Of a stretch of 64,000 nucleotides of DNA, positions 3,529 through 57,752 are shown piece by piece (the stretch's first letter is position 1; each line of letters opens with the position of its first letter). The stretch is taken from positions 1 through 64,000 of the forward strand of contig JADLBD010000200.1 of the NCBI GenBank assembly GCA_020847975.1, written 5' to 3'. The notes beneath the pieces are model-generated. The model worked only from the letters and a program-made list of their open reading frames with translations, did no database searches and was not told the origin of the DNA. The DNA is from Bryobacterales bacterium (lineage in GTDB: Bacteria; Acidobacteriota; Terriglobia; Bryobacterales; Bryobacteraceae). Position numbers and translations under genes: made by a program.

Positions 3529-3596
3529 GAAGCCAACTTCTGAGCGCACCAGATAACTCCAGAGAGCACCAGCATCGGAGTCGCAATTCACCACCA
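3529..3596 (+). repeat. 18-bp phased CCA-motif array, cluster A (degenerate)
   Basis: GAAGCCA, GAGCGCACCA and GAGAGCACCA occur with ends at 3535, 3551 and 3571. A further ACCA-rich stretch follows just before the gene at 3608. This is the loosest of five clusters of the same motif; spacing here is 16-20 bp. Confidence 0.45.
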
Positions 3597-3607
3597 AGGC
3601 GATTTCG

Positions 3608-3979
3608 ATGGAACGCGATATTGCCGTCTACAGCTACGACGGCGCACTCCTTCAATGGATTGATCAAAAGCGATTCAAACGGCTATTCGACGGCGACCGC
3701 CTGGCGCGCGTCGTCAAGACCCGTGCGGGTCGGGTCAAGCGCGTAACGCTCCGGCCCATGCCTGGCGAGTGGAAGCCGTCGCTCTTGTCCGACTACAACG
3801 GCACGAAGTACTCCTTCCAGCACTACCTCGACGATGGCCATCGGTGCTATCGGTTACGCGCGCTTGGCGACAACCGGAACGACGAGGAGTATTACCTTGC
3901 GCCCGAGGAAGCGCGGCCGATCTTTCTGCGCGTGCTGGTGGAATGCCTGGTGCCGGCACCGGCGGCGGTTGGTGCGTGA
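3608..3979 (+). CDS. Hypothetical phage protein
   Basis: This 123-residue protein starts the rightward prophage operon. It is soluble and mixed alpha/beta, with RVVKTRAGRVKRVTL, LLSDYNGTKYSFQHYLDD and EEYYLAPEEARPIFLRVL. I do not recognise a family. Its stop overlaps the next start in a TGATG arrangement, so translation is probably coupled. It lies behind a good promoter at 3417 and one of the phased repeat clusters. Confidence 0.55.
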   Translation: MERDIAVYSYDGALLQWIDQKRFKRLFDGDRLARVVKTRAGRVKRVTLRPMPGEWKPSLLSDYNGTKYSFQHYLDDGHRCYRLRALGDNRNDEEYYLAPEEARPIFLRVLVECLVPAPAAVGA

Positions 3980-4218
3980 TGTGCCCAGACTGCCTGAGCG
4001 ACAACGTTGAGACGTGGGAGTACGACTATGGCGTCTGTCCACAGACCGGCTATCACGATGCTGGCGAGCGTTTCAAATGCCACGATTGCGGGGCGACGGG
4101 CGACGCCGACGATCTGGTGCTGCGCGACGACGAGGACTCGATCGAGCCACGCACGCACGAGCATCGCTGCACGTCTCGGTCCGTTGGTTCCTTCCCGGCA
4201 CTTAGCGGCGGCGGGTAA
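3979..4218 (+). CDS. Small zinc-ribbon protein
   Basis: This 79-residue protein starts with CPDC and has CHDC about 30 residues later. Two CxxC knuckles of this kind normally hold one zinc ion in a ribbon. The C-terminal half is acidic and then Ser/Gly-rich with no clear fold. The ATG overlaps the stop of the previous gene. The role is unknown; such ribbons in phages often bind nucleic acid or partner proteins. Confidence 0.6.
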   Translation: MCPDCLSDNVETWEYDYGVCPQTGYHDAGERFKCHDCGATGDADDLVLRDDEDSIEPRTHEHRCTSRSVGSFPALSGGG

Positions 4219-4380
4219 TCCGATTGCCTAAGTCCGCTAGCGACAGATCGAGAATTCGTTGGTCGCCTGGTCGGCCCACGGCGCGCACCCTCCCGTACCG
4301 TGGGCTGGCTGGTAGGACAGGACCACCCGCCGCCACCGGGCGCAACGTGGGCCACCTGTGGCGCAACGGCTGGGGATTGG
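4219..4380. other. Gap without a recognised gene
   Basis: Open frames exist on both strands here, but none has a plausible start site, composition or recognisable motif. I see only GC-rich sequence leading into repeat cluster B. Confidence 0.35.
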
Positions 4381-4456
4381 GCGAGCCATGGCGCGAGAGA
4401 GTACCACGTTCTTGGAGCGAGCCAAAGACGCCGAGAGCACCATGTCGAGCGAGCAA
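4381..4456 (+). repeat. 18-bp phased CCA-motif array, cluster B
   Basis: GCGAGCCA, GAGAGTACCA, GAGCGAGCCA and GAGAGCACCA end at 4388, 4406, 4424 and 4442, exactly 18 bp apart. A degenerate GAGCGAGCAA follows at 4456. The two motif types alternate and the 8-bp spacers between them are unrelated. The array precedes the split coiled-coil gene. Confidence 0.7.
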
Positions 4457-4536
4457 TGACGACGATGATTGAGATTTTGCGGGTAGTTCTTACGCTGCTC
4501 GAAACCATAAATCTACTAACAAAGGAGATGAAGCGA

Positions 4537-4773
4537 ATGCAGGTAGACCTGACGTAACTGCGTGCCGACGTCGACACGCTCAAGACGGAGACCGCCGCCG
4601 CGCTGGATCGCGTTGCGGTGAATGTGAAAGCGCTGAAGGACCAGATCGCTGCTGGCGGCGGCGTGACGCAGGCCGACATCGACGGCATCGCCACCAGCAT
4701 CGAAGGCGTGATCACCAGCCTCAAGAACCTCGATCCGATTCCGCCGGACACAGGTTCGCTGCCGACGCCGTAG
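4537..4773 (+). pseudogene. Small coiled-coil phage protein split by an in-frame TAA
   Basis: A Shine-Dalgarno sequence (AAAGGAG, about 4520) precedes ATG at 4537. The frame reads MQVDLT, then TAA at 4555-4557, then continues without further stops: LRADVDTLKTETAAALD, VAVNVKALKDQIAAGGG and VTQADIDGIATSIEGVITSL, ending LPTP. Phage proteins of this type normally read through the same point as one short coiled coil followed by the AAGGGVTQADID segment. A GAA to TAA change would explain the break. The frame also extends upstream to ATG 4456. No good internal restart codon follows the stop. A sequencing error remains possible. Confidence 0.6.
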
Positions 4774-4783
4774 TCGCGAGCAA

Positions 4784-4940
4784 GATCGAGCCATCAGCGA
4801 CGAGAGCACCACTCAGCGGCGTGCGAGCCAATGTAGTCGAGACACCAGCATTGCCGAGCGAGCCAACCCAGCCGTGGGCACCAACGATGCCGAGCGAGCC
4901 ACGCGCCTTGTGAGCACCAAGTACACCGAGCGCGATTCCA
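4784..4940 (+). repeat. 18-bp phased CCA-motif array, cluster C (longest)
   Basis: Eight motifs end in CCA at 4793, 4811, 4830, 4847, 4865, 4883, 4901 and 4919. GCGAGCCA-type units alternate with GAGCACCA-type units, giving a 36-bp two-part period. Spacers of about 8-10 bp differ in sequence. A ninth, degenerate unit ends at 4940. The array starts just after the stop of the coiled-coil gene and ends just before the Shine-Dalgarno of the PAPS-reductase-like gene. Confidence 0.75.
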
Positions 4941-4959
4941 TTGCAGGAGATCGCGTTTC

Positions 4960-5826
4960 TTGACAAAACAGATTCACCGCCACGTGCTCAACTTGGGTGC
5001 CGGCGTTCAAAGCACGACGGTGTACTTGATGTACGTGGCCTCCGAGATCCAACCGGCCATCGAGTGCGCCGTCTTCGCCGACACCGGCGAGGAACCGGAG
5101 ACCATCTACCGGCATCTCGATTGGCTGCGGTCCTTGAACGGCCCGCCCATCGTGACGGTGAGCACCGGCAAATTAGGGGACGACCTCCAGCGCGGCCGGA
5201 ATTCCACCGGCCAGCGGTTCGCGTCGATCCCGGCGTACACGGCGGCGCGCGAGGGTCACAAGATCGGAATCGTTCGCCGGCAATGCACGCGCGAATACAA
5301 GATCGAACCCATCGAGCGGTACATCCGCGCCGAACTCCTGGGAATGGCGCGTGGCCAGCGGGTGCCGAATGGGATCACTGTCTTCCAGTCCTACGGCATC
5401 TCGATGGACGAGGCGGGCCGCTCGATCCGGATACGCGACCGCCTGGCGGATCGCCACTGGTTGACGCCGGTGTTCCCGCTGCTCGACCGGCAGATGACGC
5501 GCGGAGACTGCTACCAGTGGCTCCAGCGTTTCGGCGTGCCGCATGAGGTTCAGAAGAGCGCATGCGTCTTCTGCCCGTTCAAGTCGAACGCCGAGTGGCG
5601 CCGGATGCGCGACACCGATCCGGAGAGTTGGGCGCGCGCGGTTGAGATCGACAACGCGCTCCGCGTTCCTGGCAACGTGGTGAACCGGAATCTCGATCAG
5701 AAGTTGTACGTGCACGTCAGTTGCGTGCCGTTGGAGAAAGCGGTCCTCGGGCCGGACGATGATCCGCGCCAGTATTACCTCGGCCTCAATTGGACGGCAG
5801 AGTGCGCGGGGATGTGCGGCGTGTGA
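4960..5826 (+). CDS. PAPS reductase / PP-loop ATPase-like protein
   Basis: This 288-residue protein belongs to the adenine-nucleotide alpha-hydrolase group. NLGAGVQSTTVYLMYV near residue 11 is the PP-loop variant that grips ATP or PAPS phosphates. AVFADTGEEPETIYRHLDWL follows, as in phage PAPS-reductase-like proteins. RRQCTREYKIEPIERYI (about 108), SACVFCPFKSNAEW (about 200) and the final CAGMCGV supply cysteines for metal or sulfur chemistry. The start is TTG at 4960 with AGGAG about 10 nt upstream. Related proteins reduce sulfate or act in nucleic-acid thio-modification. The substrate in phages is not settled, and a role in DNA modification beside the methyltransferases is only inference. 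Confidence 0.7.
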   Translation: MTKQIHRHVLNLGAGVQSTTVYLMYVASEIQPAIECAVFADTGEEPETIYRHLDWLRSLNGPPIVTVSTGKLGDDLQRGRNSTGQRFASIPAYTAAREGHKIGIVRRQCTREYKIEPIERYIRAELLGMARGQRVPNGITVFQSYGISMDEAGRSIRIRDRLADRHWLTPVFPLLDRQMTRGDCYQWLQRFGVPHEVQKSACVFCPFKSNAEWRRMRDTDPESWARAVEIDNALRVPGNVVNRNLDQKLYVHVSCVPLEKAVLGPDDDPRQYYLGLNWTAECAGMCGV

Positions 5827-5829
5827 GGG

Positions 5830-6642
5830 ATGTGGAACGAGCGGTTGGAACAGGCGGCTGCCGAGATGCGCGAGCGCAATCTCGCACAGCAGCAGCAGGA
5901 GATTGTCGCCACGTACCCGCGTCCCGCGCGGACTGGGGAAAGCCGCCAGAGCCAGCGCGCCGGTTTGGACGCGGCACGAGCTCGTCACGCCGCTAGCGCG
6001 CGGGAACGCCAGGACGACGCGATAGTGCTTCCTGCTGCGGTGCCGGCGATCCCGGATCACATTGATCCGCGGGCTTTGCCGCCACGCAAGGCGCTTGGCC
6101 GGCCCAAGGGCATGAAGCGGATGGCGCAGGAGCTCTATCCGGTCTGTCCACGATGCAACGGCTCGAACGTGATTCGGCGAGGTGTCCCGAAGGGGCTCCA
6201 GCAGTACCGATGCAAGGACTGCCAGCGGAACTTCGCCGGACGCGGGGTCCGGCTTTTGGAGCCGGTTGTCGTCAAGCTCATCTGCTACCGGTGTGGTGCC
6301 GAGGGCCGGAACATGGGGCCGTCGCCGGACTCCGGACGCACCGGCTACTGTGCGATGTGCCGGAAACGGTTCATCCAGGGCGGCAGGAACGAGCTCGCGA
6401 AGTACCACCTGTTGCTGGACCGACGCATCGCCGAGTTGAAGTTGCCGGAAGACGTCAAGGCTGAGGTGCTCCAGATGGCGTACCGCGACGTGCTCGAAGG
6501 CGCGGGCTACTGCTGGACCGTGGAGCTGAAGACGAAGGAGGCTTGGCGGAATGCGCGTGGCGAGTATGGCCAGCGTGGATCGGACGACCGGACGTATCGG
6601 CGGGTAGCCGAGGGACAGAGGGTTTATGACTACGGCGATTGA
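5830..6642 (+). CDS. Multi-zinc-ribbon protein
   Basis: This 270-residue protein has a charged helical N-terminus (WNERLEQAAAEMRERNLAQQ), a Pro-rich linker, then zinc-binding pairs. CPRCNGSNVIRRGV with YRCKDCQRNF (about 105-140) is the ribbon seen in IS1/InsA-type transposase N-termini and other DNA-binding proteins. CYRCGAEG with CAMCRKRF (about 155-185) is a second pair. The C-terminal 80 residues are helical and basic. It probably binds nucleic acid. Its first 25 residues resemble those of the gene at 29079. The start lies 3 bp after the previous stop. Confidence 0.6.
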   Translation: MWNERLEQAAAEMRERNLAQQQQEIVATYPRPARTGESRQSQRAGLDAARARHAASARERQDDAIVLPAAVPAIPDHIDPRALPPRKALGRPKGMKRMAQELYPVCPRCNGSNVIRRGVPKGLQQYRCKDCQRNFAGRGVRLLEPVVVKLICYRCGAEGRNMGPSPDSGRTGYCAMCRKRFIQGGRNELAKYHLLLDRRIAELKLPEDVKAEVLQMAYRDVLEGAGYCWTVELKTKEAWRNARGEYGQRGSDDRTYRRVAEGQRVYDYGD

Positions 6643-6952
6643 GACGCTCTTCGGCACGGTCCTCGTTCCGCAACCGGATCCGGGATCGAAGGGCATGACC
6701 GCCGACGAGATCCGGATCGTCGAGGCGTTGTACGGTTGCTCGTTCTCTCCTGGGAGCAGCCAGAAGAGGTTCGTCCGGAACATGCTTCACCGCGATCGCG
6801 CCAAGCCGTTGACCGACCGCCAGCGCGCGTACCTATGGGCCATCGCGTGGTCCTGGCGCAGACAGTTGCCCGGCTCGCTTGTGCGGTTGGCGGGTGAGTA
6901 TAGCGGCGGTGTCGGGATTCGTGGACGGAAGGTGCTGGAGGCCACGGCGTGA
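6626..6952 (+). CDS. Hypothetical phage protein
   Basis: This 108-residue protein overlaps the previous gene by 17 bp. It contains a basic helical stretch (QKRFVRNMLHRDRAKPLTDRQRAYLWAIAWSWRRQL) of the kind seen in small phage DNA-associated proteins. I do not recognise a named family. It overlaps the next ATG by one base, so it is part of the same operon. Confidence 0.6.
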   Translation: MTTAIETLFGTVLVPQPDPGSKGMTADEIRIVEALYGCSFSPGSSQKRFVRNMLHRDRAKPLTDRQRAYLWAIAWSWRRQLPGSLVRLAGEYSGGVGIRGRKVLEATA

Positions 6953-7212
6953 TGCTGTCGTACTGGAGGCGTGTCGCCGCACCGATCATCGCGAAGGTAC
7001 TTCAGGACACCGCAGGCCAGCCCGCGCGTGAAGTCCGGGCCGCGTTGTTGAAAGCGTATCCGTTCGGTCCTCGGAAACATCATCCGTATCGCATCTGGCG
7101 CGATGAGGTCCGGACGCAGATGGGTCGCCGGAAGTTGGACAACCGTGTTCGGAAGGCGCAGGGACGGGAGCCAGAACCGCCCGATCCTCGGCAGACCGCG
7201 CTATTCGCATGA
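6952..7212 (+). CDS. Hypothetical phage protein
   Basis: This 86-residue basic protein has LSYWRRVAAPIIAKVL, EVRAALLKAYPFGPRKHHPYRIWRDEV and a Pro-rich end. It starts at the ATG that overlaps the previous TGA; a GTG 3 bp upstream is an alternative. The pattern GPRKHHPYRIW recurs in small phage proteins of unknown role. It probably belongs with the DNA-metabolism genes around it. Confidence 0.6.
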   Translation: MLSYWRRVAAPIIAKVLQDTAGQPAREVRAALLKAYPFGPRKHHPYRIWRDEVRTQMGRRKLDNRVRKAQGREPEPPDPRQTALFA

Positions 7213-7415
7213 GTATTGCGCCGACTTTTATGAAGACCAGGGCCCAGATCGCATACGAAGCCTACTTCGAAGCAGCGGGCGGCAAGTCGCTCGCGACCGG
7301 CCAACCGTTGCCTCAATGGGACGCGCTCTCGCCGGAGATTCGTGCGGCGTGGGAAGCGGCCGCCGTCGCGGTAATGAAGTCGGTAGGACAGGACATCATC
7401 AGGTACGCCGAATGA
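7209..7415 (+). CDS. Hypothetical phage protein
   Basis: This 68-residue acidic helical protein reads TRAQIAYEAYFEAAGGKSL, then PQWDALSPEIRAAWEAAAVAV. Phages carry many short proteins with this signature (AYxxY followed by WDxLSPxxRxAW); none that I know has an assigned function. ATG overlaps the stop before it, and its own stop overlaps the methyltransferase start, so it is translationally coupled on both sides. Confidence 0.6.
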   Translation: MSIAPTFMKTRAQIAYEAYFEAAGGKSLATGQPLPQWDALSPEIRAAWEAAAVAVMKSVGQDIIRYAE

Positions 7416-8980
7416 ACTTTCAGGCGGTCGCCGTCCAAATGGCGCGGCGCATTGAGATTTGGCCGCTTGACCGGTTGAAGCCGTACGCGCGCAACGCGCG
7501 CACGCACTCGGATGCGCAGGTCGCACAGATCGCAGCATCGATTGTGGAGTTCGGCTTCAACAACCCGATCCTCGTCGACACCGGGGAAGGGATCGTGGCC
7601 GGCCACGGGCGCCTCCTGGCGGCGCGGAAGTTGGGTCTCGCTGAATGTCCGGTGGTGGTGCTGGACCACTTGAGTGAGACCCAGCGTCGCGCATATATCA
7701 TCGCGGACAACAAGCTCGCGCTCAACGCAGGGTGGGACGAGAAGATGCTGGCCGTGGAGTTGCGCGAACTCGATGCTGCCGGGATGGACCTGGGCACCGT
7801 GGGATTCTCCGATGTCGAGTTGGAGGACCTGTTCGTCGACGAGGAGCCGGAGTCGCCGCGCGATGTCGAGGAAGAAATTCCGGACGAGCCGGCCAATCCG
7901 GTCACCCGGCCTGGCGACGTGTGGGTGATTGGGAAGCACCGGTTGATTTGCGGCGATTGCCGGGATCGGAATACTCTCGGAATGTTATTCCCGGTTCATG
8001 CGCGCGCGAACGTGGTGATCACCTCGCCGCCGTACGCAAAGCAGCGGGACTACGACACCACGAGTGGCTTCACGCCGATCCCGCCAGAGCAGTACGTCGC
8101 CTGGTACGCTGCCGTGGCTGCCGGTGTGGAATCGGTCCTCGCGCCGGACGGATCGTACTTTCTGAACATCAAAGCCCACGCCGATGAAGGCGAGCGGAAC
8201 TTGTACGTGATGGATCTCGTCCTCGCGCACAAGCGGCTGTGGGGCTGGCGCTTCGTTGACGACCTTTGCTGGCGGAAAACAGACAATGGCGTGCCTGGCG
8301 GTTGGGGAAATCGCTTCAAAAACGCATGGGAACCTGTGTTCCACTTCTGCCGCCAGCAAGAGATCAAGTTCCGGCCGAAACGGGTCGGACACGAGTCGGA
8401 GGATTGTTTTGATTACAGCCCCAACAATCCGAAGTCGAAGTCCGGCAGCGGGCTCCTGGGAACTGGCGCGCGTGGCGCCGCAGCCGATGGCGGGAAGAAC
8501 CAGTCGGCCTGGCAGCGTTCGCGTAGCAGCCTGACTAGTGACTCGGATGGCCGGCGCGCTGGTGTGGCGCGGCCATCCAACGTAATCGAGGTCAAGAGCG
8601 AGTCGAGCCAGGGATCGCACTCGGCTCCGTTCCCGCGCGCGCTGGTGGAGTTTTTTGTGCTCGCGTATTCGGATCCGGGCGATGTGGTCTTCGATCCGTT
8701 CTGCGGGTCTGGAACCACGATAGCCGCCGCGGAGTTGCTCGGGCGCACCGGGTACGGAACAGAGCTCTCGCCGGCCTACTGCGACGTGATCGTCCGGAGG
8801 CTTATGGCGTTGACCGGGAACGACGCGGCGATGGACGTTACCGGAGAAACATTCGCAGCGGTCGCCGAGGCGCGTGGCGTTCCGCTCGATCAGGCCTTAA
8901 ACCCCAAGGCGAACGACTCGCGCGCCATCAAGCACAACGGGCCCAATCCACATTACGGGTCCAAGCGAAAAGCTTCGTAA
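7412..8980 (+). CDS. ParB-like domain fused to DNA methyltransferase (TSPPY type)
   Basis: This 522-residue protein has two parts. Residues about 8-120 are a ParB/Srx-like domain (KPYARNARTHSDAQVAQIAASI, GIVAGHGRLLAARKLGL, IADNKLALNAGWDE). The rest is an amino-methyltransferase of the beta order: TSPPYAKQRDYDT near 210, then DPFCGSGTTIAAAELLGR near 430. The TSPPY form of motif IV is typical of N4-cytosine and some N6-adenine enzymes. It would methylate DNA with S-adenosylmethionine, probably to protect phage DNA. No restriction partner is encoded nearby. A paralogue with the DPPY form lies at 9721; a 70-bp patch of the ParB part is nearly identical in DNA. Confidence 0.85.
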   Translation: MNFQAVAVQMARRIEIWPLDRLKPYARNARTHSDAQVAQIAASIVEFGFNNPILVDTGEGIVAGHGRLLAARKLGLAECPVVVLDHLSETQRRAYIIADNKLALNAGWDEKMLAVELRELDAAGMDLGTVGFSDVELEDLFVDEEPESPRDVEEEIPDEPANPVTRPGDVWVIGKHRLICGDCRDRNTLGMLFPVHARANVVITSPPYAKQRDYDTTSGFTPIPPEQYVAWYAAVAAGVESVLAPDGSYFLNIKAHADEGERNLYVMDLVLAHKRLWGWRFVDDLCWRKTDNGVPGGWGNRFKNAWEPVFHFCRQQEIKFRPKRVGHESEDCFDYSPNNPKSKSGSGLLGTGARGAAADGGKNQSAWQRSRSSLTSDSDGRRAGVARPSNVIEVKSESSQGSHSAPFPRALVEFFVLAYSDPGDVVFDPFCGSGTTIAAAELLGRTGYGTELSPAYCDVIVRRLMALTGNDAAMDVTGETFAAVAEARGVPLDQALNPKANDSRAIKHNGPNPHYGSKRKAS

Positions 8981-9093
8981 GCCATTCGAAGTGCGAGAAC
9001 CACCGCCTCCGAGCGAGCCAGTCCGCAGAGAGCACCAGGGGAGATAGCGAGCCATTGAGCCGACATGGACCATGTCCAACGAGCGATCTTCCA
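8977..9093 (+). repeat. 18-bp phased CCA-motif array, cluster D
   Basis: Motifs end in CCA at 8984, 9002, 9020, 9037, 9054, 9072 and 9093, so spacing is 17-18 bp for the first six. GAGCGAGCCA and GAGAGCACCA are again the best units. The array begins on the stop codon of the methyltransferase and ends about 30 bp before the gene at 9124, which has its own AAAAGGAG site. Confidence 0.7.
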
Positions 9094-9123
9094 TCAGTTA
9101 ACTGACAAAAGGAGAAAACCAGT

Positions 9124-9708
9124 ATGCCCGAAGTCGCGACGCCGAATCAGGCGGAACGTGAATTTGAAACCGGATCGGACGAGTTTTTCAAGTCCCACTC
9201 CGAACTGACCGCAGCCAACGCCAAGCGGACCTACGATGAGTACCAGCACGCCGGTCTGGAACACATCCGGAACAACCAGAGGTTGTTCGATCAGGCCGCA
9301 TCCAACTTGCAGACGCAGTTGGCATCTATCAACAACATCACGACGCAGCACCTGCAGAACGCGGTTGCGGCGGCGCATCAGATCAACCAGAACGCGATCG
9401 AGACCGCGAACATGACGGCCAAGCAGGCTGTGAAGCACGCGGACGTCGCGGCGGATGCGATGTGGAACCCCGTGCAGCAGGGCACGGCAGATACGCTCAC
9501 CGCCACCGGCTACACGCCGAATCGCGCCGTCGATACGGCGACCGCCGGTGTCAGCGTCTCGGCCGAGGCGGTGGCTGCCGCCGTTGCCAAGCAGGTCGAC
9601 GCGACCGTTACGCCGGTCGTTGCGGTCCTGCAGCAGTTGATTCAGGCGCTCGCTACGGCGACGACCGCAATCGCCAACACGGTCAACCAGACCCAGCCCA
9701 AGAGCTAG
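9124..9708 (+). CDS. Phasin-like helical protein
   Basis: This 194-residue protein is Ala-, Asn- and Gln-rich and fully helical. Long amphipathic stretches include LFDQAASNLQTQLASINN, ITTQHLQNAVAAAHQINQNA and TVTPVVAVLQQLIQAL. The pattern of regularly spaced small and polar residues resembles phasin or apolipoprotein-type bundles, but there is no specific motif to prove it. It has a strong AAAAGGAG site and sits between the two methyltransferases. It could be a DNA- or membrane-associated scaffold. No signal peptide is seen. Confidence 0.55.
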   Translation: MPEVATPNQAEREFETGSDEFFKSHSELTAANAKRTYDEYQHAGLEHIRNNQRLFDQAASNLQTQLASINNITTQHLQNAVAAAHQINQNAIETANMTAKQAVKHADVAADAMWNPVQQGTADTLTATGYTPNRAVDTATAGVSVSAEAVAAAVAKQVDATVTPVVAVLQQLIQALATATTAIANTVNQTQPKS

Positions 9709-9720
9709 GGGACCACAACA

Positions 9721-11016
9721 ATGATCGCGCAGAACGGAACCAAGCATCCTGCGAGTGCCACGAATTCCGTGTGCGTTCTGCGCGATCTCGCTATTGAACG
9801 CTGGCCAATCGACAAGCTCGTGCCCTACGCGAGGAACGCGCGCACGCACTCCGATGCGCAGGTCGCACAGATCGCGGCATCGATTGTGGAGTTCGGGTGG
9901 ACCAACCCGATCCTCGCTGGCAGCGACGGCGTGATCGTCGCCGGCCATGCGCGCCTGGCTGCCGCACGCAAGTTGGGTATGACCGAAGTGCCGGTCATCG
10001 TCCTTGATCACCTCACGCCAACGCAGCGGCGCGCGCTGGTCCTCGCCGACAACCGCCTGGCGCTCAACGCCGGATGGGACGAGGAGATGCTGAGGGTCGA
10101 ACTGGCCACACTGAAAGAGGAGAACTTCGACCTTGACGTGGTCGGCTTCACCGACGAGGAGGTCGATGCGTTCCTCTCGGACGAGGAGCCGAACCAAGGG
10201 CTGGTCGAAGACGATGCGGTTCCGGACCAACTAGCGAAGGTCGTCACCGTCCGTGGCGACTTGTGGCTCCTGGGAGACCACCGGTTGCTATGCGGCGACG
10301 CCACGCAGATGGCCGACGTCGAGAAAGTCATGGCTGGCGGGCTGGCCGATATGGTCTTCACCGATCCGCCCTACAACGTCGACTACGAGGGCAAGACTGC
10401 GAAGAAGCTCAAGATCGGCAACGATGCCCTCGGCGGTAAGTTCTATGAATTCCTGCGCGACGCCAGCGCGAACATGCTGGCGGTCACCAAGGGCGCGATC
10501 TACATGTGCATGTCCTCGTCGGAGTTGCACACGCTTTATGCGGCCTTCCTGGATGCCGGTGGTTACTGGTCCACCTACGTGATCTGGGCCAAGCACCACT
10601 TCACGTTGGGCCGGTCGGATTACCAGCGCATGTACGAGCCGATCCTGTACGGTTGGCGCAAGGGCGCGGAACACTTCTGGTGCGGCGCGCGCGACCAGGG
10701 GGACGTGTGGTTCATCAAGCGGCCGGCGAGCAGCCAGGAGCACCCGACCATGAAGCCGGTCGAGCTCGTCGAGCGCGCCGTCCGGAACAGCAGCAAGTCG
10801 CGCGATACGATCCTGGACCCGTTTGGCGGGAGTGGGACGACGATGATCGCGTGTGAGAAGGCGGGCCGGCAGGCGCGCCTGGTGGAGTTGGAGCCGAGGT
10901 ACTGCGACGTGATCATCCGTCGATGGCAGGAGTGGACTGGCGACGTCGCTCGCCACGCCGAGTCGGGCCGCGCATTCAACGAAGTTGCGGCCGAAATCGA
11001 GGCAAGGGTCGCCTGA
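9721..11016 (+). CDS. ParB-like domain fused to DNA methyltransferase (DPPY type)
   Basis: This 431-residue protein has the same layout as its neighbour at 7412. A ParB-like domain occupies residues about 20-130 (VPYARNARTHSDAQVAQIAA, VIVAGHARLAAARKLGM, LADNRLALNAGWDEEM). A beta-order methyltransferase follows, with FTDPPYNVDYEG near 220 and LDPFGGSGTTMIACEKAGR near 360. DPPY suggests N6-adenine methylation. It also has HPTMKPVELVERAV before motif I, as usual. With the first fusion and the C5 enzyme at 50383, the phage carries three methyltransferases with different catalytic motifs, which is usually read as protection from host restriction. Confidence 0.85.
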   Translation: MIAQNGTKHPASATNSVCVLRDLAIERWPIDKLVPYARNARTHSDAQVAQIAASIVEFGWTNPILAGSDGVIVAGHARLAAARKLGMTEVPVIVLDHLTPTQRRALVLADNRLALNAGWDEEMLRVELATLKEENFDLDVVGFTDEEVDAFLSDEEPNQGLVEDDAVPDQLAKVVTVRGDLWLLGDHRLLCGDATQMADVEKVMAGGLADMVFTDPPYNVDYEGKTAKKLKIGNDALGGKFYEFLRDASANMLAVTKGAIYMCMSSSELHTLYAAFLDAGGYWSTYVIWAKHHFTLGRSDYQRMYEPILYGWRKGAEHFWCGARDQGDVWFIKRPASSQEHPTMKPVELVERAVRNSSKSRDTILDPFGGSGTTMIACEKAGRQARLVELEPRYCDVIIRRWQEWTGDVARHAESGRAFNEVAAEIEARVA

Positions 11017-12254: not shown

Positions 12255-12746
12255 ATGGCAGTAATGAGCCAGCGGGCATACGCCCGCCACCGTGGGGTGG
12301 CGATCAACGCCGTCCAAGCGGCGATCCAGAGTGGCCGGATTTCGACCTCACCGGACGGCCAGATCGATTCCGACGTCGCGGACAAGGAGTGGGCTCGCAA
12401 CACCAGGCAGCAGGCACCGCCGACCGGCGCGCGCCGCACGCAATCGGACGACGAAACCGAGGTTTTCGGCGCAAGCCAATATAACAAAGCACGAGCGGTG
12501 CGCGAGCACTACCAGGCACGGCTGGCCAAGTTGGAGTACGAGGAGAAGACCGGCAAGTTGGTTCCGGCCGACGAGGTAAAGATAGCGGCGTTCAATCTGT
12601 TCCGCCGTTACCGCGACCACATGTTGAACATCGCCGACCGGGTGGCGGCGATCCTTGCTGCCGAGACCGAGGCGGCGAAGTGTTACGAGATCCTCTCGAC
12701 CGAAATCAGGAAGGCATTGAATGAATTTGCCGACGCCAACGGCTGA
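12255..12746 (+). CDS. Terminase small subunit-like protein
   Basis: This 163-residue protein begins with a short helix-turn-helix (SQRAYARHRGVAINAVQAAIQSGRISTSPDGQID), which is how lambda Nu1-type small subunits recognise the packaging site. The rest is helical (ASQYNKARAVREHYQARLAKLEYEEKTGKLV), the self-assembly and large-subunit-contact part. It overlaps the large subunit by 26 bp. Order and overlap support the call. It would select phage DNA for packaging. Confidence 0.8.
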   Translation: MAVMSQRAYARHRGVAINAVQAAIQSGRISTSPDGQIDSDVADKEWARNTRQQAPPTGARRTQSDDETEVFGASQYNKARAVREHYQARLAKLEYEEKTGKLVPADEVKIAAFNLFRRYRDHMLNIADRVAAILAAETEAAKCYEILSTEIRKALNEFADANG

Positions 12747-46843: not shown

Positions 46844-47187
46844 TGTTCCAGGAAACCATCATCCAGATCAACAACGGCGCGGCGGTCCAGGAACTGTCCG
46901 ACGCGCTCAAAAAGGTGGTCGCCGCCGTCCGCGAGACCGGCAAGTCCGGTTCGATCACTCTCACGCTTAAGGTCGCACCTGCTTCGAAGGGTAACGCCGA
47001 CGTGCTGCTGGTGGAGTCCCAGGTGAAGTCCAAGCTGCCTGAGCCCGAGCGCGGCATGACGATCTTCTACGCGACTGACAACAACCTGCTCGTCCGCAAT
47101 GACCCCAAGCAGCAGATGCTGCCGCTCCGCGTGGTCGAGTTCGACCACCAGCCGCGTGAACTCAAGGAGGTAAAGAATGCCGTATAA
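46843..47187 (+). CDS. Hypothetical phage protein
   Basis: This 114-residue protein has TIIQINNGAAVQELSDALKKVVAAVRETGKSGSITLTLKV, then ALVVESQVKSK-like beta strands and MTIFYATDNNLLVRNDPKQQMLPLRVV. The pattern recurs in phages upstream of DUF2303 genes, as here. Function is unknown. It overlaps the genes on both sides; its end carries the AAGGAGG of the next gene. Confidence 0.6.
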   Translation: MFQETIIQINNGAAVQELSDALKKVVAAVRETGKSGSITLTLKVAPASKGNADVLLVESQVKSKLPEPERGMTIFYATDNNLLVRNDPKQQMLPLRVVEFDHQPRELKEVKNAV

Positions 47188-48016
47188 CGACCAAAATGAA
47201 AACGCCAGCATCGGCGACATCCAGTCCGCAATCGCTGCTGGCGCCGCGCTGAGCGAACCGCGCACGATCCCGGAGACTCCGGAGCCCACCGGCTTGTACG
47301 CGGTGGTTCCAGCGGATTACAAGCTCGAATCGCTCGAAGACTTCCTGCCGCGCCCGTTGCGTGTGCGGCAGCAAGTATCTCTTCACGATGCGCAGTCGTT
47401 CATCGCCTACGTGAAGGAGTTCGGCGATCACGAACTGAGCCGGATCTTCTTCAATCAGGAGAAGGAGACGTTCCAAGCCGTGCTCGACTACCACGCCGCT
47501 AATGGGCAACCCGGCTGGTGCGCACACGTGGCCGGATTCACCACGCGCCGCAGTGAAGAGTTCAAAGCCTGGATGGTGCAGAACAAGAAGCAGATGGGGC
47601 AGGTCGACTTCGCGCGCTTCCTGGAGGACAACCTGCCCGACATCGTCGAGCCCGAGGGCGCGATGCTGCTGCAGATCGCGCTCACATTCGAAGCCAAAAA
47701 GGATGTGGAGTTCGCTTCCGGCGTGCGGTTGCAGAACGGCCAAATCCAATTCCAATACAACGAAGTTATTCGCGGCGCCGCGCAGAAGGGAACGCTCGAG
47801 GTGCCCGAGCAGTTCGTCTTGGGCGTTCCGATCCACGTGGGCGGGCCGGCCTACCGGATTCCGGTGCGGTTCCGCTGGCGCCTCCACGATGGCAAGGCGA
47901 TCTTCTGGTACGAGATCGTCCGGCCGCACCGCTACGTCGAGGACGCGCTCAAGGAGATCCGTGAGCGCATCGCGGAGGTGACCCGCCTCGACGTGCTGGC
48001 TGGCGCGGCAGAGTAG
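47177..48016 (+). CDS. DUF2303 (YfdQ-like) protein
   Basis: This 279-residue protein matches the DUF2303 layout. HDAQSFIAYVKEFGDHELSRIFFNQEKETFQAVLDYHAANGQPGWCAHVAGF is the signature core, with FARFLEDNLPDIVEPEGAMLLQIALTFEAKKDVEFAS and later PIHVGGPAYRIPVRFRWRLHDGKAIFWYEIVRP. DUF2303 proteins occur in phages next to recombination genes, but the activity is unknown. AAGGAGG is 5 nt upstream. The stop is followed directly by repeat cluster E. Confidence 0.85.
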   Translation: MPYNDQNENASIGDIQSAIAAGAALSEPRTIPETPEPTGLYAVVPADYKLESLEDFLPRPLRVRQQVSLHDAQSFIAYVKEFGDHELSRIFFNQEKETFQAVLDYHAANGQPGWCAHVAGFTTRRSEEFKAWMVQNKKQMGQVDFARFLEDNLPDIVEPEGAMLLQIALTFEAKKDVEFASGVRLQNGQIQFQYNEVIRGAAQKGTLEVPEQFVLGVPIHVGGPAYRIPVRFRWRLHDGKAIFWYEIVRPHRYVEDALKEIRERIAEVTRLDVLAGAAE

Positions 48017-48020
48017 CAGG

Positions 48021-48123
48021 CTCGAAGCCAAGTACGTCGAGAGAGACCATTCTCCGCGAGCGAGCCATAACGCCTGAGAGTCGCCAGATCTACAGCGCGA
48101 ACCAAAGGGGCATTAGCGCGCCA
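48021..48123 (+). repeat. 18-bp phased CCA-motif array, cluster E
   Basis: CCA-ended motifs close at 48030, 48049, 48067, 48086, 48104 and 48123 (spacing 18-19 bp). GAGCGAGCCA at 48067 is a perfect copy; GAGAGAGACCA, GAGAGTCGCCA, GCGCGAACCA and GCGCGCCA are variants. It fills the gap between the DUF2303 gene and the gene at 48155, far from the other four clusters. Confidence 0.65.
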
Positions 48124-48154
48124 ATGGGCGCGAGTGAATCAGAAGGGAATTGCA

Positions 48155-49033
48155 ATGTACGACACCACCACCATCGACCAGACGCGGGATGCTGTTCAGC
48201 GTCTGAACAGCGACCTTGTGAAGGCCGCGTCAACATTGAGCGTCAACGAGGCACGCTACCTCGTTGACGCCTACTACACGATCCAGGAATACCGGAAGGC
48301 GGCAGCTAACCAAGTTCGCTCGCTCGCGATTTCGGATGAGCCGCACACGGTTATCCAGTGGCTCTTCGACCAGAACCAGACGCTTGAACTGCAAATCAAG
48401 CGCGCTCTCGACTCGTGGACCGAGTCTATCCCCGCTGCAGTGTGGGCAAAAGGAATTGTCGGCATTGGCCCGGTGATCTCCGCAGGGCTTGCCGCCCACA
48501 TTGAAATCGAGCGCTGCAACACGGTCGGCAAGATCTGGCGGTTCGCAGGCCTCGACCCCACGGTCGTGTGGCTGCCCAAAACGAAGCGGCCTTGGAATGC
48601 GGCGCTCAAGTGTCTCTGCTGGAAGATTGGCGAGAGCTTCGTCAAGGCCTCCGGACGCGAGGGCGACTTTTACGGCAAGCTGTACCAGCAGCGGAAGGCC
48701 ATCGAGCAAGGGCACAACGACGCCGGCGAGTTTGCCGACCAGGCGAAGGCGAAGTTGGAGCGCTTCAACATTGGCAAAGATACGGAGGCCTATAAGTGGT
48801 ACTCCGAAGGCAAACTCCCGCCCGCTCACCTTCACGCGCGCGCCAAGCGTTGGGCGGTGAAGCTCTTCCTCGCGCATTATCACCATGTCGCCTGGAAGCT
48901 CTCTACCGGGCAGGAGCCGCCGAAGCCGTACGTCATCGCGCACCTGAATCACGTTGACTACATCGCGCCGCCGAATTTCGGCAAAGGATCGGAGGTTGCC
49001 TGCCGCCTGGATCTCATCGGGGAGGGGCTGTGA
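48155..49033 (+). CDS. Phage protein with IS110-type helix-hairpin-helix domain
   Basis: This 292-residue protein has a helical N-terminus (LNSDLVKAASTLSVNEARYLVDAYYTIQEYRKAA, then LDQNQTLELQIKRAL-like). The middle, VWAKGIVGIGPVISAGLAAHIEIERCNTVGKIWRFAGLDPTV, is the transposase_20 domain of IS110/IS116 transposases: a helix-hairpin-helix that binds DNA. The DEDD catalytic part of IS110 is absent and there is no IS end, so I do not call a transposase. It may bind branched DNA in recombination. The ATG at 48155 follows an AAGGGA site; a GTG at 48134 is possible. Confidence 0.7.
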   Translation: MYDTTTIDQTRDAVQRLNSDLVKAASTLSVNEARYLVDAYYTIQEYRKAAANQVRSLAISDEPHTVIQWLFDQNQTLELQIKRALDSWTESIPAAVWAKGIVGIGPVISAGLAAHIEIERCNTVGKIWRFAGLDPTVVWLPKTKRPWNAALKCLCWKIGESFVKASGREGDFYGKLYQQRKAIEQGHNDAGEFADQAKAKLERFNIGKDTEAYKWYSEGKLPPAHLHARAKRWAVKLFLAHYHHVAWKLSTGQEPPKPYVIAHLNHVDYIAPPNFGKGSEVACRLDLIGEGL

Positions 49034-52824: not shown

Positions 52825-54569
52825 CGCCGCTCGAATTTCTAACGCAACTCTGGCAGCACAAGCCCGAGGAGCACTTCGTCCTGATATGGACGACTCCGGA
52901 AAAGCGCTCGCGATGGTTCACCGACATTTCCGCCGCCGCGGACTATGTCACCAGCATCAATGGCGACCGCGATGTGTACGTGGGAGTCGGCCTCTCGAAA
53001 GCGGATTACGGGCCCACGCGCCGGTGCAAATCAGACGAGATTTCTGGCCTGTGTGGTATCGGTGTGGACCTCGATGTGAAATCGGAGGCGCACGGCAATA
53101 AGCCGCTCCCGCCCTCGATCGACGATGCGCTCTCGCTCCTTCCCCCGACATTGTCCCCATCGATCCTGGTCAGCACTGGGAACGGCGTGCACGCTTGGTG
53201 GCTCTTAAAAGAGCCCTTCGTTCTTGACACCGAGGACGACCGAAAGCTGGCTGTGAGCGTGCTCGCGCGCTGGCACACGATGCTCCGGCTGCGCGCGGCA
53301 ACACGCGGGTGGGCATACGACCGACTCTCCGATCTGGCCCGCATTCTTCGCGTTCCTGGGACGCTCAACCACAAAGACCCAAACAACAGGAAGAAGGTGG
53401 CGGTGCTTTCGGCGACCGACCTTCGCTACAACATGTCGGATTTCGAGGAACTCCTCGACGACACCGGCATCCCCGATCCGGAGGCGGAAGAGAAGGCACG
53501 CCGGGAGTGGGCGGAACGTTTCGCCGACAAGCCCCTCGTGATCAACGTCAGCGCACGCATTCAGCAGCAGTTGCTCGACGAATGGATCAACCAGGACCCC
53601 AGGTTCCGTAACACCTGGGAACGTCGCCGTCACGACTTGAAGGACCAGAGTGACTCCGGCTACGACATGGCGCTGGCCTGCTTTGGCGTGGATGCGGGCC
53701 TTTCAGAGCAACGCATCGTCGATCTCGTCGTTCACCACCGCGCACTTCATGGCCGGAAGCAGCGGACGCGGGTGGACTACTTCCAGCGGACTATCGCCAA
53801 GGCAATGGAGAAAGCGGGTGGAGCGCCAGCGGTGACTGTCGGCGCACCGGCGTCTGGCGCGCACGACCCGCGCAGTACTGATGGTAACGACGAGGACGAG
53901 CAGCAACCGGCCGATCCCGCAATCGCGAAAGCGTACCTCTGCGAGACCGTTTCTGCCGCGCTGAGCACGTCCAAATTTCGCGTACAGATCATCCGGATGG
54001 TGAAGTTCCAGGGCAAGGAGCCTACGTATCACATGGAACTGATCCAGGGAAAGATCGAATTCCCGAGCTTCGCGAAGTTCACCGACTACGCCAGCGTCCG
54101 CAATGCAATCGGCGGGCTGACGAACGGGCTCATCCGGAAGATCAAGACAAAGGAATGGGAACCGGTCGCGCAGATGATGCTGGATGCCTGCTTCATCGAG
54201 GAGTGCACCGAGGAAGAAGAATTCGAGGGCGGCGCGCGCGCCAACGTACTCGACTACCTTCAGGAAACCGACTTCATCCCCTCGATTGAGGGCCAGAGGG
54301 TCCAGGACCAGCGCAGACCCATGATCGCTGATGGCCGCATCCTGGTGTCCAGTTCGGATTTCAAGGACTATCTGAACCGGACCAAAAACCTGGGGATATC
54401 TGGCAAAGCGGCCGCGTCGATGCTGGGCGCCATCGGGGCGAAGAAGAGTCCTCGGTTGCGCAGCAACAAGTACAGAAGCCAGTCGCGCTGGGCGCTGCCA
54501 CCAGCAGACTTCAATCCCGCCGAAATTAAGCCGTCGGCGGTGGCGGCGGGGGATATCCATGATGAGTGA
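52821..54569 (+). CDS. RepB-like/AEP-type DNA primase
   Basis: This 582-residue protein starts PLEFLTQLWQHKPEEHFVLIWTTPEKRSRWFTDI, then CGIGVDLDVKSEAHG and PSILVSTGNGVHAWWLLKEPFV. The D-x-D pair and the STGNGxHxWWLL segment form the RepB/archaeo-eukaryotic primase core. ILRVPGTLNHKDPNNRKKV is the usual following motif. The C-terminal half (YLCETVSAALSTSKFRVQIIRMVKFQGKEPTYHMEL and LGISGKAAASMLGAIGAKKS) has no clear helicase motif. It would lay primers for phage replication. GTG start overlaps the HD gene. Confidence 0.75.
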   Translation: MTPLEFLTQLWQHKPEEHFVLIWTTPEKRSRWFTDISAAADYVTSINGDRDVYVGVGLSKADYGPTRRCKSDEISGLCGIGVDLDVKSEAHGNKPLPPSIDDALSLLPPTLSPSILVSTGNGVHAWWLLKEPFVLDTEDDRKLAVSVLARWHTMLRLRAATRGWAYDRLSDLARILRVPGTLNHKDPNNRKKVAVLSATDLRYNMSDFEELLDDTGIPDPEAEEKARREWAERFADKPLVINVSARIQQQLLDEWINQDPRFRNTWERRRHDLKDQSDSGYDMALACFGVDAGLSEQRIVDLVVHHRALHGRKQRTRVDYFQRTIAKAMEKAGGAPAVTVGAPASGAHDPRSTDGNDEDEQQPADPAIAKAYLCETVSAALSTSKFRVQIIRMVKFQGKEPTYHMELIQGKIEFPSFAKFTDYASVRNAIGGLTNGLIRKIKTKEWEPVAQMMLDACFIEECTEEEEFEGGARANVLDYLQETDFIPSIEGQRVQDQRRPMIADGRILVSSSDFKDYLNRTKNLGISGKAAASMLGAIGAKKSPRLRSNKYRSQSRWALPPADFNPAEIKPSAVAAGDIHDE

Positions 54570-56483: not shown

Positions 56484-57752
56484 ATGCCAGTCCACAAACG
56501 CAAGCGCGACGGAAAGATCAGTTGGTTCTATAAGTTCGACGGCCCGGAGTCCACGCGCGAAAATCGCATCATCATCCAGAAGTGGGGCTTTGCCACGAAG
56601 AAGGAGGCGCAAGACGCCGAATCCGAAGCCCGAGCCGAGGCACTCAAGAAATACGAGATGGCCAAGGCAGGAGCCGGCGTCACAGCAGCGGTCCCGAAGA
56701 CGCTGTCTATGCTGCTGGACGAATTCTTTCGCCAGTACGCGGAGGAGAAATTGGCTCCCAAAACGAACGAGCGCTACCGCGAAATGGCAGCATGCCTTGA
56801 TGCCGGCCTGCTGACGATGCCGCTCAGTGAGATCACGCCGCTTCACCTCAGTCGAGAGTGGACCCGGCTGCTGAAGTGCGGCGGCCACACGCGCAAGGAC
56901 AAGACACCGCGTCCGATGAGCGCGAAGACCGTCCGGAACATTGCAAGCGTGGTTTCCTCGGCATTCGGCCGCGCGATCAAGTGGGAACTGGTTCAGCGAA
57001 ATCCGGTCGAGCACAGTGAGCCGCCGATCCCGGAGAAGCGCAAAGGCGCCGCACTTACGGTGGCACAACAGGACACGCTGATCACTGCCGCGAGTGGGCC
57101 CTGGTGTATGTCGATGATCCTCGAAGTAGACGCCGCGCTCGGCGCACGCCGTGGTGAGGTGCTTGCACTTCGCTGGTCGGACATCGTGGATGGACGCGCA
57201 GTAATCGCACGATCGCTCACGCAGACTTTTCGGCTCGTGGACGGACCGGACGAAAAGAAGATCAAGGTACACGATGTCCTTGAATTCAAGAGTACGAAGA
57301 CCAAGGACATTCGCGTGATCGGGCTCCCAGCGTCAACACTCGCCGCACTGGAGGATCATCGCAAACGACAAGACGAGTTCCGCCAGCAGTTCGGTCCGGA
57401 CTACCGCGCCGACCTCGACTTGATCTTCGCCAACCCGGATGGCACACCGCTGAAGCCGGATTCGGTATCCGCGACGGTATCTGCGCTGTTCCGACGCCTC
57501 AAGATCCCGAAACCCAAGGGCGCATCCCTCCACCTTCTGCGCCACAGCCACGGGTCTCACATGCTGGCGAACGGCGTGCCGTTGCCGGTCGTCTCGGAGC
57601 GCCTGGGGCATTCCTCGGTGCGCGTGACCGCCGACATCTATTCGCACGCGATCCACGGCCAGGACGACGAGGCTGTGCGCAAGTGGGAAGAGTATCAGCA
57701 GCGGAACCGACCTGGGGCGAGCGCTTCCCCTCATGAAGAACAGGTTCAGTGA
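56484..57752 (+). CDS. int: Phage tyrosine integrase
   Basis: This 422-residue recombinase has the usual arm-binding N-terminus (RDGKISWFYKFDG, RIIIQKWGFATKKEAQDAE), a core-binding SAM-like domain (about 85-160) and a C-terminal catalytic domain. The active site is GARRGEVLALRWSDI (Arg, about 225), LHLLRHSHGSHML (His and Arg, about 352) and LGHSSVRVTADIYSHAI (His and nucleophile Tyr). All are intact. It would integrate the phage at its attachment site, perhaps the tRNA-Glu 3 kb downstream. It is the last typical phage gene on the right. Confidence 0.93.
   Translation: MPVHKRKRDGKISWFYKFDGPESTRENRIIIQKWGFATKKEAQDAESEARAEALKKYEMAKAGAGVTAAVPKTLSMLLDEFFRQYAEEKLAPKTNERYREMAACLDAGLLTMPLSEITPLHLSREWTRLLKCGGHTRKDKTPRPMSAKTVRNIASVVSSAFGRAIKWELVQRNPVEHSEPPIPEKRKGAALTVAQQDTLITAASGPWCMSMILEVDAALGARRGEVLALRWSDIVDGRAVIARSLTQTFRLVDGPDEKKIKVHDVLEFKSTKTKDIRVIGLPASTLAALEDHRKRQDEFRQQFGPDYRADLDLIFANPDGTPLKPDSVSATVSALFRRLKIPKPKGASLHLLRHSHGSHMLANGVPLPVVSERLGHSSVRVTADIYSHAIHGQDDEAVRKWEEYQQRNRPGASASPHEEQVQ

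Follow-up and report, generated by a model that had tools for sequence, protein, structure and literature searches.

What are the short, evenly spaced repeats that occupy the gaps between prophage genes in a Bryobacterales bacterium? In the current work this question was addressed for a stretch of 64,000 nucleotides (nt) of contig JADLBD010000200.1 (assembly GCA_020847975.1; referred to throughout as the window), in which an earlier reading made from the sequence alone had noticed motifs ending in CCA that recur about every 18 bp, and had termed them undescribed. This term does not stand, since the arrays are explained by TIGR-Tas, a recently described CRISPR-like guide-RNA system (Faure et al. 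2025, PMC12045711); comparisons with this system refer throughout to the accessible parts of that publication. The window system is almost certainly TIGR-TasA, and the explanation as a whole, in which the phased repeats are TIGR arrays of this system that would supply guides for interference with related phages, is held to be likely.

Two alternating repeats separated by variable spacers

In the window, an edge box of 10 nt, GAGCGAGCCA, alternates with a loop box of 10 nt, GAGAGYACCA, the two being separated by variable spacers of approximately 8 nt, which gives a unit of 36 nt composed of edge, spacer, loop and spacer. Both the edge and the loop repeat start 5′ with GAG and end 3′ with CCA, in keeping with the box C / box D pattern, the arrays terminate in 5′- and 3′-truncated edge repeats (parsed by eye), and some of the window boxes differ from the consensus by 1-3 bases or more. 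The boxes lie at the positions given in the sequence-only reading; the motif itself is here corrected to a 10-mer followed by a spacer of about 8 nt, and the alternation to one between two types of repeat.

Array 1 (two units, 4381-4455, + strand) consists of a first unit with a 5′-truncated edge at 4381-4388, spacer A at 4389-4396, loop at 4397-4406 and spacer B at 4407-4414, of a second unit with edge at 4415-4424, spacer A at 4425-4432, loop at 4433-4442 and spacer B at 4443-4450, and of a 3′-truncated edge at about 4451-4455. Array 2 (four units, 4784-4932, + strand) has boxes starting at positions 4784, 4802, 4821, about 4838, 4856, 4874, 4892 and 4910, in agreement with the spacings of 18, 19, 17, 18, 18, 18 and 18 reported earlier, and ends in the 3′-truncated edge GAGCG at 4928-4932; its unit 4 (4902-4927, + strand) contributes spacer A CGCGCCTT (4902-4909), the loop GTGAGCACCA (4910-4919) and spacer B AGTACACC (4920-4927). 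Array 3 (three units, 8978-9085, + strand) opens with the 5′-truncated edge TAAGCCA at 8978-8984, inside which the stop codon of a methylase gene falls. Array 4 (about three units, 48022-48135, + strand), which is degenerate and lies directly 5′ of the tas gene, was parsed by eye, as were several end units of the arrays, and was detected by a chain scan at a looser threshold only (score 6). The four main clusters of the sequence-only reading are retained, with boxes at 4379-4456, 4784-4932, 8978-9085 and 48022-48123. A further, degenerate cluster that it had placed at 3529-3596 (+ strand) does contain two loop-like boxes (3542-3551 and 3562-3571) and is devoid of an edge repeat; this possible decayed array is absent from the chain-scan output.

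At up to one mismatch, GAGAGCACCA occurs 16 times in the window against 4.96 expected (none of 100 shuffles reaches 16), and GAGCGAGCCA 18 times against 10.2, a count matched by one of 100 shuffles, while the chain scan returned three arrays in the window and none in the reversed window. The exact pair GCGAGCCA-N8..12-GAGCACCA is present three times in the host's own assembly (8.67 Mb, 302 contigs), each time within the window clusters, with no occurrence on the other strand and none of the backwards-read pattern. The comparison with host DNA that had been proposed as a check therefore finds exact pairs nowhere else in the host assembly, and the companion check on conservation finds the phasing retained in many other phages; both outcomes speak for a genuine feature. 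The single orientation that had been ascribed to the clusters holds in the window and says little there, since 66 of the 76 called window genes already lie on the + strand; among relatives (designated here by our own handles), some distal arrays of G205, G218 and G220 are located on the strand opposite to tas.

A protein-coding repeat was ruled out by eye because the spacings of 17 and 19 do not preserve a reading frame and stop codons are present, and a CRISPR array because the repeats are 10 nt long and of two alternating types, and the associated protein is Tas. An Rfam scan of the window at gathering scores identified one tRNA and nothing else.

The Tas protein and its arrays in related phages

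The gene tasA (48155-49033, + strand; alternative GTG start at 48134) encodes a Nop-domain Tas protein of 292 amino acids (aa) without a nuclease domain. In a sequence search of the PDB up to E 10 its sole solved relatives were TasR (9mty, E 1.2e-18) and TasH (21kl, E 2.8e-9), and an AlphaFold model built from an alignment of eight sequences (pLDDT 77.7, pTM 0.76) is all-helical and lacks a nuclease domain; because of this relatedness and this model, the protein is assigned to TasA. Foldseek analysis of the model gave 11 PDB matches at E <= 0.001, corresponding to TasR/TasH chains, followed by IS621-type recombinases, and the PHROG match of the protein is phrog_4285 ‘transposase’ (E 4.7e-48). 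The structural likeness to the IS110/IS621 bridge-RNA recombinases is weak (Foldseek E 3.7e-3). These recombinases employ one bridge RNA, as opposed to the tandem guide array of the window, where the Tas model is without a visible transposase catalytic domain. Pfam retrieved no family for the window protein at E 1e-3, PADLOC (2023) has no family for the four Tas proteins scanned, and a plasmid search gave no Tas relative at E 1e-5. In a phage collection, the sole match was Salicola phage CGphi29 (two records), the TasH of which was studied in PMC12045711; this protein has a related Nop domain (26% identity over 62%) and, unlike the window protein, an HNH nuclease.

When the proteins of nine array-bearing genomes were clustered, the Tas family (window 48155-49033) was the only one shared by all nine, the runner-up occurring in three, and it adjoins arrays in eight of the nine as determined by script, the window gene being placed directly 3′ of array 4. 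A search with an alignment of eight Tas proteins returned 495 stretches, of which 463 represent relatives; the best 80 of these 463, together with 10 earlier loci, yielded 88 tas loci, among which there are some near-identical copies. Within the fetched flanks, an array of the same motif was found at 67 of the 88 related viral tas loci, compared to none of 88 when the sequence was reversed, and the 21 array-less loci may have other repeat types. Tas is encoded at E <= 1e-10 by five of 400 host-related genomes. Two tas genes of unusual structure were encountered: one in G212 (L164-L167, about 53597-54430), split across several frames through either decay or assembly errors and lying beside a 59-box array, and a homolog in a two-contig genome (L277, G019:C1:136010-136795), with one in-frame TAG and located beside a 10-box array.

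The repeat pair is widely distributed among viral sequences. When IMG/VR was scanned for this pair, at least 120 stretches were recovered, with up to 43 copies on one contig, many being spaced by multiples of 36 bp among the matches listed. From 291 exact pairs (loci with at least three each) the consensus GAGCGAGCCA-N8-GAGAGYACCA-N8 was obtained, in which the spacers are near random; the search seed fixes 16 of the consensus positions and leaves the neighbouring boxes and the spacers free. The pattern was detected in 28 of 28 records and its reversed version in none, the records having been picked for their arrays. The longest alternating array of the first set has 61 boxes, and very long arrays were noted at L235 2326-4009 (93 boxes), L193 7188-8441 (70 boxes) and L158-L163 (G210) 90722-91811 (61 boxes), which exceed the 5-15 units given as the most frequent TIGR array size in PMC12045711. 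Among 200 genomes of relatives searched for the pair, 17 have matches; most of these look like chance, because the reversed control also matches in six. True arrays are those of G105, a genome of the same family as the host (L143, Bryobacterales metagenome-assembled genome (MAG) PMKM01000203.1), where tas adjoins, and of G101 (contig of L146). The latter is a clear 6-box array (L146 2712-2812, G101/G225:C63) in a genome that is not among the five with a Tas match, so either it is an orphan array or the genome is incomplete. A lone pair match in Gilvimarinus algae (L145 2891-2919), a bacterium of another group, may be due to chance.

The window shares with TIGR-TasA (PMC12045711) the alternation of 8-12-nt edge and loop repeats, 8-9-nt spacers, the 36-nt unit, truncated terminal edges, CCA closing both repeats, a solo Nop-domain protein and a location in phages. 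It differs in that its main arrays are short, partly degenerate and spread over several gaps distant from tas, and its repeats start with GAG as opposed to the UG of published TasR repeats (PMC12045711). With tas at 48.2 kb, the degenerate array 4 adjoins the gene, which is separated by 39-44 kb from the better arrays (4.4, 4.8 and 9.0 kb). At a distance of more than 5 kb from tas, arrays are present in six of the 12 long array contigs inspected (window, G205, G210, G218, G220 and G428, that of G210 being at a contig end), and a survey limited to 5-kb flanks, as in PMC12045711, would miss them.

The gaps occupied by arrays are conserved in the relative G428, which has one array between the gene homologous to window 3943-4218 and the methylase gene, where the window has arrays 1 and 2 and several extra genes, and further arrays directly after the methylase gene and between DUF2303 and tas; the array just 5′ of tas is also found at the matching place in G105. 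In both the window and G428 the methylase stop codon falls within the truncated edge TAAGCCA, and the spacers that follow this junction differ. The window and G428, with 16 spacers each, have none in common, whereas G428 has in common four of the six spacers of G105. The tas-proximal arrays of L187/G428 and L143/G105, which belong to two different phages, are nearly identical, with single-base differences in some spacers. Repeated spacer pairs within a source amount to 11 redundant copies among 1423 units from 70 sources; this figure, together with the turnover of spacers at fixed gaps (one phage pair), argues against growth of the arrays through unit duplication.

Predicted target sites of the guides

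The target of a guide was taken to be spacer A followed by the reverse complement of spacer B because this is implied by the published cut rule (8-nt 3′ overhangs, with cleavage 5′ of the nucleotide that pairs with spacer position 5; PMC12045711), and the geometry was derived ahead of the searches. The two spacers total 16 nt, as for SpTIGR (PMC12045711), and the predicted target of array 2 unit 4 is CGCGCCTTGGTGTACT (16 nt). In 475 kb of DNA from the phage group, an exact site without a gap was found for two of 96 guides, compared to none with a wrong geometry, and at least two were reached in seven of 2000 pair shuffles. One of these two guides is array 2 unit 4, whose site lies in the gene preceding the large terminase of phage G431; the window homolog of this gene (12255-12746, + strand) is the terminase small subunit (phrog_57, E 1.6e-34). 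The other, a guide of L149 (a Candidatus Solibacter MAG), has its site in DUF2303 of G429 and G431.

The main test employed 59 guides from 13 sources of this phage group, with gap 0 and 2000 pair shuffles, a procedure which preserves each single spacer and breaks the pairing alone. Set 1 comprised 20 of the 21 best non-own large-terminase places (19 of the host family, one of the class; 326 kb, without array) and yielded two exact guides and seven at up to one mismatch against null values of 0.042 and 0.84 (P 0.0005 and 0/2000), the wrong geometry yielding 0 and 0. In 1.22 Mb of group DNA plus viral loci selected by large terminase (TerL) there were two and eight against 0.075 and 2.69 (P 0.002 and 0.0025), those for the wrong geometry being 0 and 2, and in set 1, group and viral DNA together (1.55 Mb) three and ten against 0.094 and 3.22 (P 0/2000 and 0.0015). 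No excess was seen in 352 kb of unrelated TIGR phages (0 and 0 versus 0 and 1.05) nor when 262 unrelated guides were tried on set 1 (0 and 0 versus 0.05 and 2.4, the wrong geometry giving 0 and 3), and alternative target geometries gave no clear excess, wrong-geometry matches at gap 0 and up to one mismatch numbering 0 to 3 per test. A scan of viral DNA with a portal-like protein of G205 gave five related loci, two of them being G205 itself and a copy, which are too few for generality. Two more prophages of the same host with related large terminases were noted (G000:C179 and G000:C117; L436, L437, L456), and their fetched stretches contain no site at up to one mismatch for any of the 59 guides.

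The matched sites recur in particular genes. In IMG/VR, the unit-4 16-mer lies inside a terminase small-subunit homolog in 25 of 36 stretches and the L149 site inside the homologous DUF2303 gene in 5 of 16, these counts being of homologs and so not of independent events. Eight of 400 whole genomes contain the unit-4 site exactly (reversed control, one), and in three of the eight it is within a terminase small-subunit gene; in set 1 it is exact in two such genes and one mismatch off in two. Array 1 unit 2 matches the 337-aa gene 3′ of terL in related phages (one mismatch, at position 4), and a G428 guide the ParB-methylase gene of relatives with one mismatch; besides these two genes and DUF2303, two small genes are matched, mostly with one mismatch. 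The phage's own version of the unit-4 site, in the terminase small-subunit gene, has 5 of 16 mismatches. A selected escape from self-targeting, suggested by three synonymous changes in L149's own site, was dropped on account of self-site divergence near the gene average, measured on the other, codon-aligned pairs with the L149 pair excluded.

Weighing the explanations

According to the reading favoured here, the arrays would be co-transcribed with the phage operon and, as published for TIGR systems elsewhere, cleaved midway through each edge repeat to give 36-nt tigRNAs consisting of half an edge, spacer A, loop, spacer B and half an edge. A dimer of the nuclease-free TasA would bind the tigRNA, its Nop domain recognizing both repeat types, and at a single 16-bp DNA site one 8-nt spacer would base-pair with one strand and the second spacer with the other. 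The earlier suggestion that the repeats act on RNA went in the right direction, as the arrays look like templates of guide RNAs. Since the candidate sites of this phage group fall within genes belonging to related temperate phages, the arrays likely serve to interfere with relatives that compete with their carrier. A nuclease-free Tas could harm such a rival through blocking transcription, replication or packaging, or through bending DNA, and no cutting would be involved; we regard the prospects of such cleavage-free interference as evenly balanced. What the analysis establishes is the anatomy of the arrays, the tas gene, the association of the two and the excess of properly oriented guide matches in related prophage DNA; transcription, processing, binding and interference are inferred. 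In some phages the terminase small-subunit gene can contain the packaging site, so that it would be a sensible site to occupy.

Several results weigh against this interpretation. Short arrays are all that the window contains, array 4 among them being degenerate, and no terminator-like site was found on the + strand at 4200-9200 (hairpins were seen by eye 3′ of arrays in the relatives G205 and G210). Some guides derive from degenerate arrays, and among the seven of set 1 there is one whose spacers are 7 nt long; matches at homologous sites do not count as independent, and differences of 3-5 of 16 at self-sites amount to ordinary divergence. Set 2 (20 further stretches, 299 kb) gave no exact guide and three at up to one mismatch against 0.01 and 0.73 (P 0.0385); these look like chance because two of the three sites are outside the homologous gene, for which reason our confidence in related phages as the targets of the guides was lowered somewhat. 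With gaps of 0-2, the wrong geometry produced one exact and four one-mismatch guide-contig pairs versus three and eight for the right one, a broad search with 1586 pairs gave 14 matches versus 4-10 in 10 shuffles (wrong geometry, 8 versus 3-11), and TerL-selected viral loci alone gave one exact guide among 52 against 0.095 (P about 0.09). For other phage groups, 2851 units from 146 sources had no exact match in related DNA against 0.69 (16 shuffles), in a test that is weak, the arrays themselves being a possible basis of the relatedness used in it. Finally, TasR did not stop phage or conjugation in E. coli according to PMC12045711.

Four other explanations were weighed. Operators for a phage repressor, phased on the DNA, had been suggested by the sequence-only reading through a likeness to mycobacteriophage stoperators and start-associated sequences, which are dispersed, intergenic, directional short motifs. 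The single orientation, intergenic placement and even spacing in the window would suit such sites; but stoperators are not known to have dual repeats, guide spacers or a Tas gene, and the two alternating repeats, variable spacers, truncated ends and up to 61 boxes per array are what TIGR explains and operators do not, most of the 88 loci have an array next to their Nop-domain Tas gene, and distal arrays face either way, which makes repressor sites scarcely credible and leaves the proposed likeness unsupported. Self-regulation, in which the guides would act on the phage's own genome, fits arrays placed between operon genes and a TasA without nuclease, and is nevertheless rendered quite improbable by the behaviour of own guides on own DNA, which in nine array contigs stays at the level of shuffled pairs; all 1335 pairs gave one exact match on the same contigs (shuffles, 5 and 0), and the own genome has no unit-4 site at up to one mismatch and eight at two mismatches versus nine for the reversed pattern. 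Host chromosomal genes are improbable targets as well: a TasA with a regulatory function could be active on the host, and most of the 59 guides are without a target found, yet in 337 kb of own-host DNA no guide was exact and two matched at up to one mismatch, against 0 and 1.0 for shuffled pairs (P 0.27).

The most serious competitor is that matches to related phages arise by chance or as a by-product of conserved codons. The signal resides in few guides, one conserved site leads to many homologous matches, and the broad search, the TerL-selected loci, the other phage groups and set 2 were weak or negative. Against this, the excess in set 1 is lost once the pairing is shuffled, and there is none with unrelated guides or DNA, so that we hold chance to be unlikely, if far from negligible, and guides aimed at related phages, which we consider probable, to be the best reading of the pairing excess.

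The genes around the arrays include DUF2303 (47177-48016, + strand) upstream of array 4, the homolog of which in sibling phages contains the predicted target of a guide of L149, and the ParB_N + N6_N4_Mtase DNA methylase (7412-8980, + strand) upstream of array 3, its ParB_N domain being below the Pfam curated cut-off. Two such ParB_N + DNA methylase genes lie near each other (7412-8980 and 9721-11016), 37-41 kb from tas. Downstream of array 2, the gene at 4960-5826 matches the PAPS-reductase-like SspD in PADLOC (E 3e-17) and possibly represents a DNA-modification function of the prophage. The prophage integrase is located at 56484-57752 (+ strand; phrog_1, E 1.6e-64). ParB-like genes adjoin some tasA genes in PMC12045711, and none was noted directly beside the window tas, which has DUF2303 upstream and partly identified genes downstream.

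PMC12045711 left open which natural targets TIGR systems have, what nuclease-free TasA does and where spacers come from, and no natural target is reported in the accessible TIGR-Tas literature covered (PMC12045711 and the review PMC12385481; open-access scope). Beyond the published description, as far as accessible, go the arrays distant from tas, the arrays of a close relative in matching places with no common spacer, and the candidate natural targets; perhaps the matched sites are the first natural TIGR-Tas targets to be seen. The unit-4 guide comes with a specified predicted target, the terminase small subunit on public contigs, and with a specified non-target, the copy carried by the phage itself, and for this reason the question of natural targets becomes testable at the bench. 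The balance tips just in favour of a picture in which a TasA prophage, with arrays in fixed gaps and fast replacement of spacers, targets essential genes of related phages and prophages such as the terminase small subunit, and would thereby carry a cleavage-free RNA-guided weapon used among the phages of one bacterial family.
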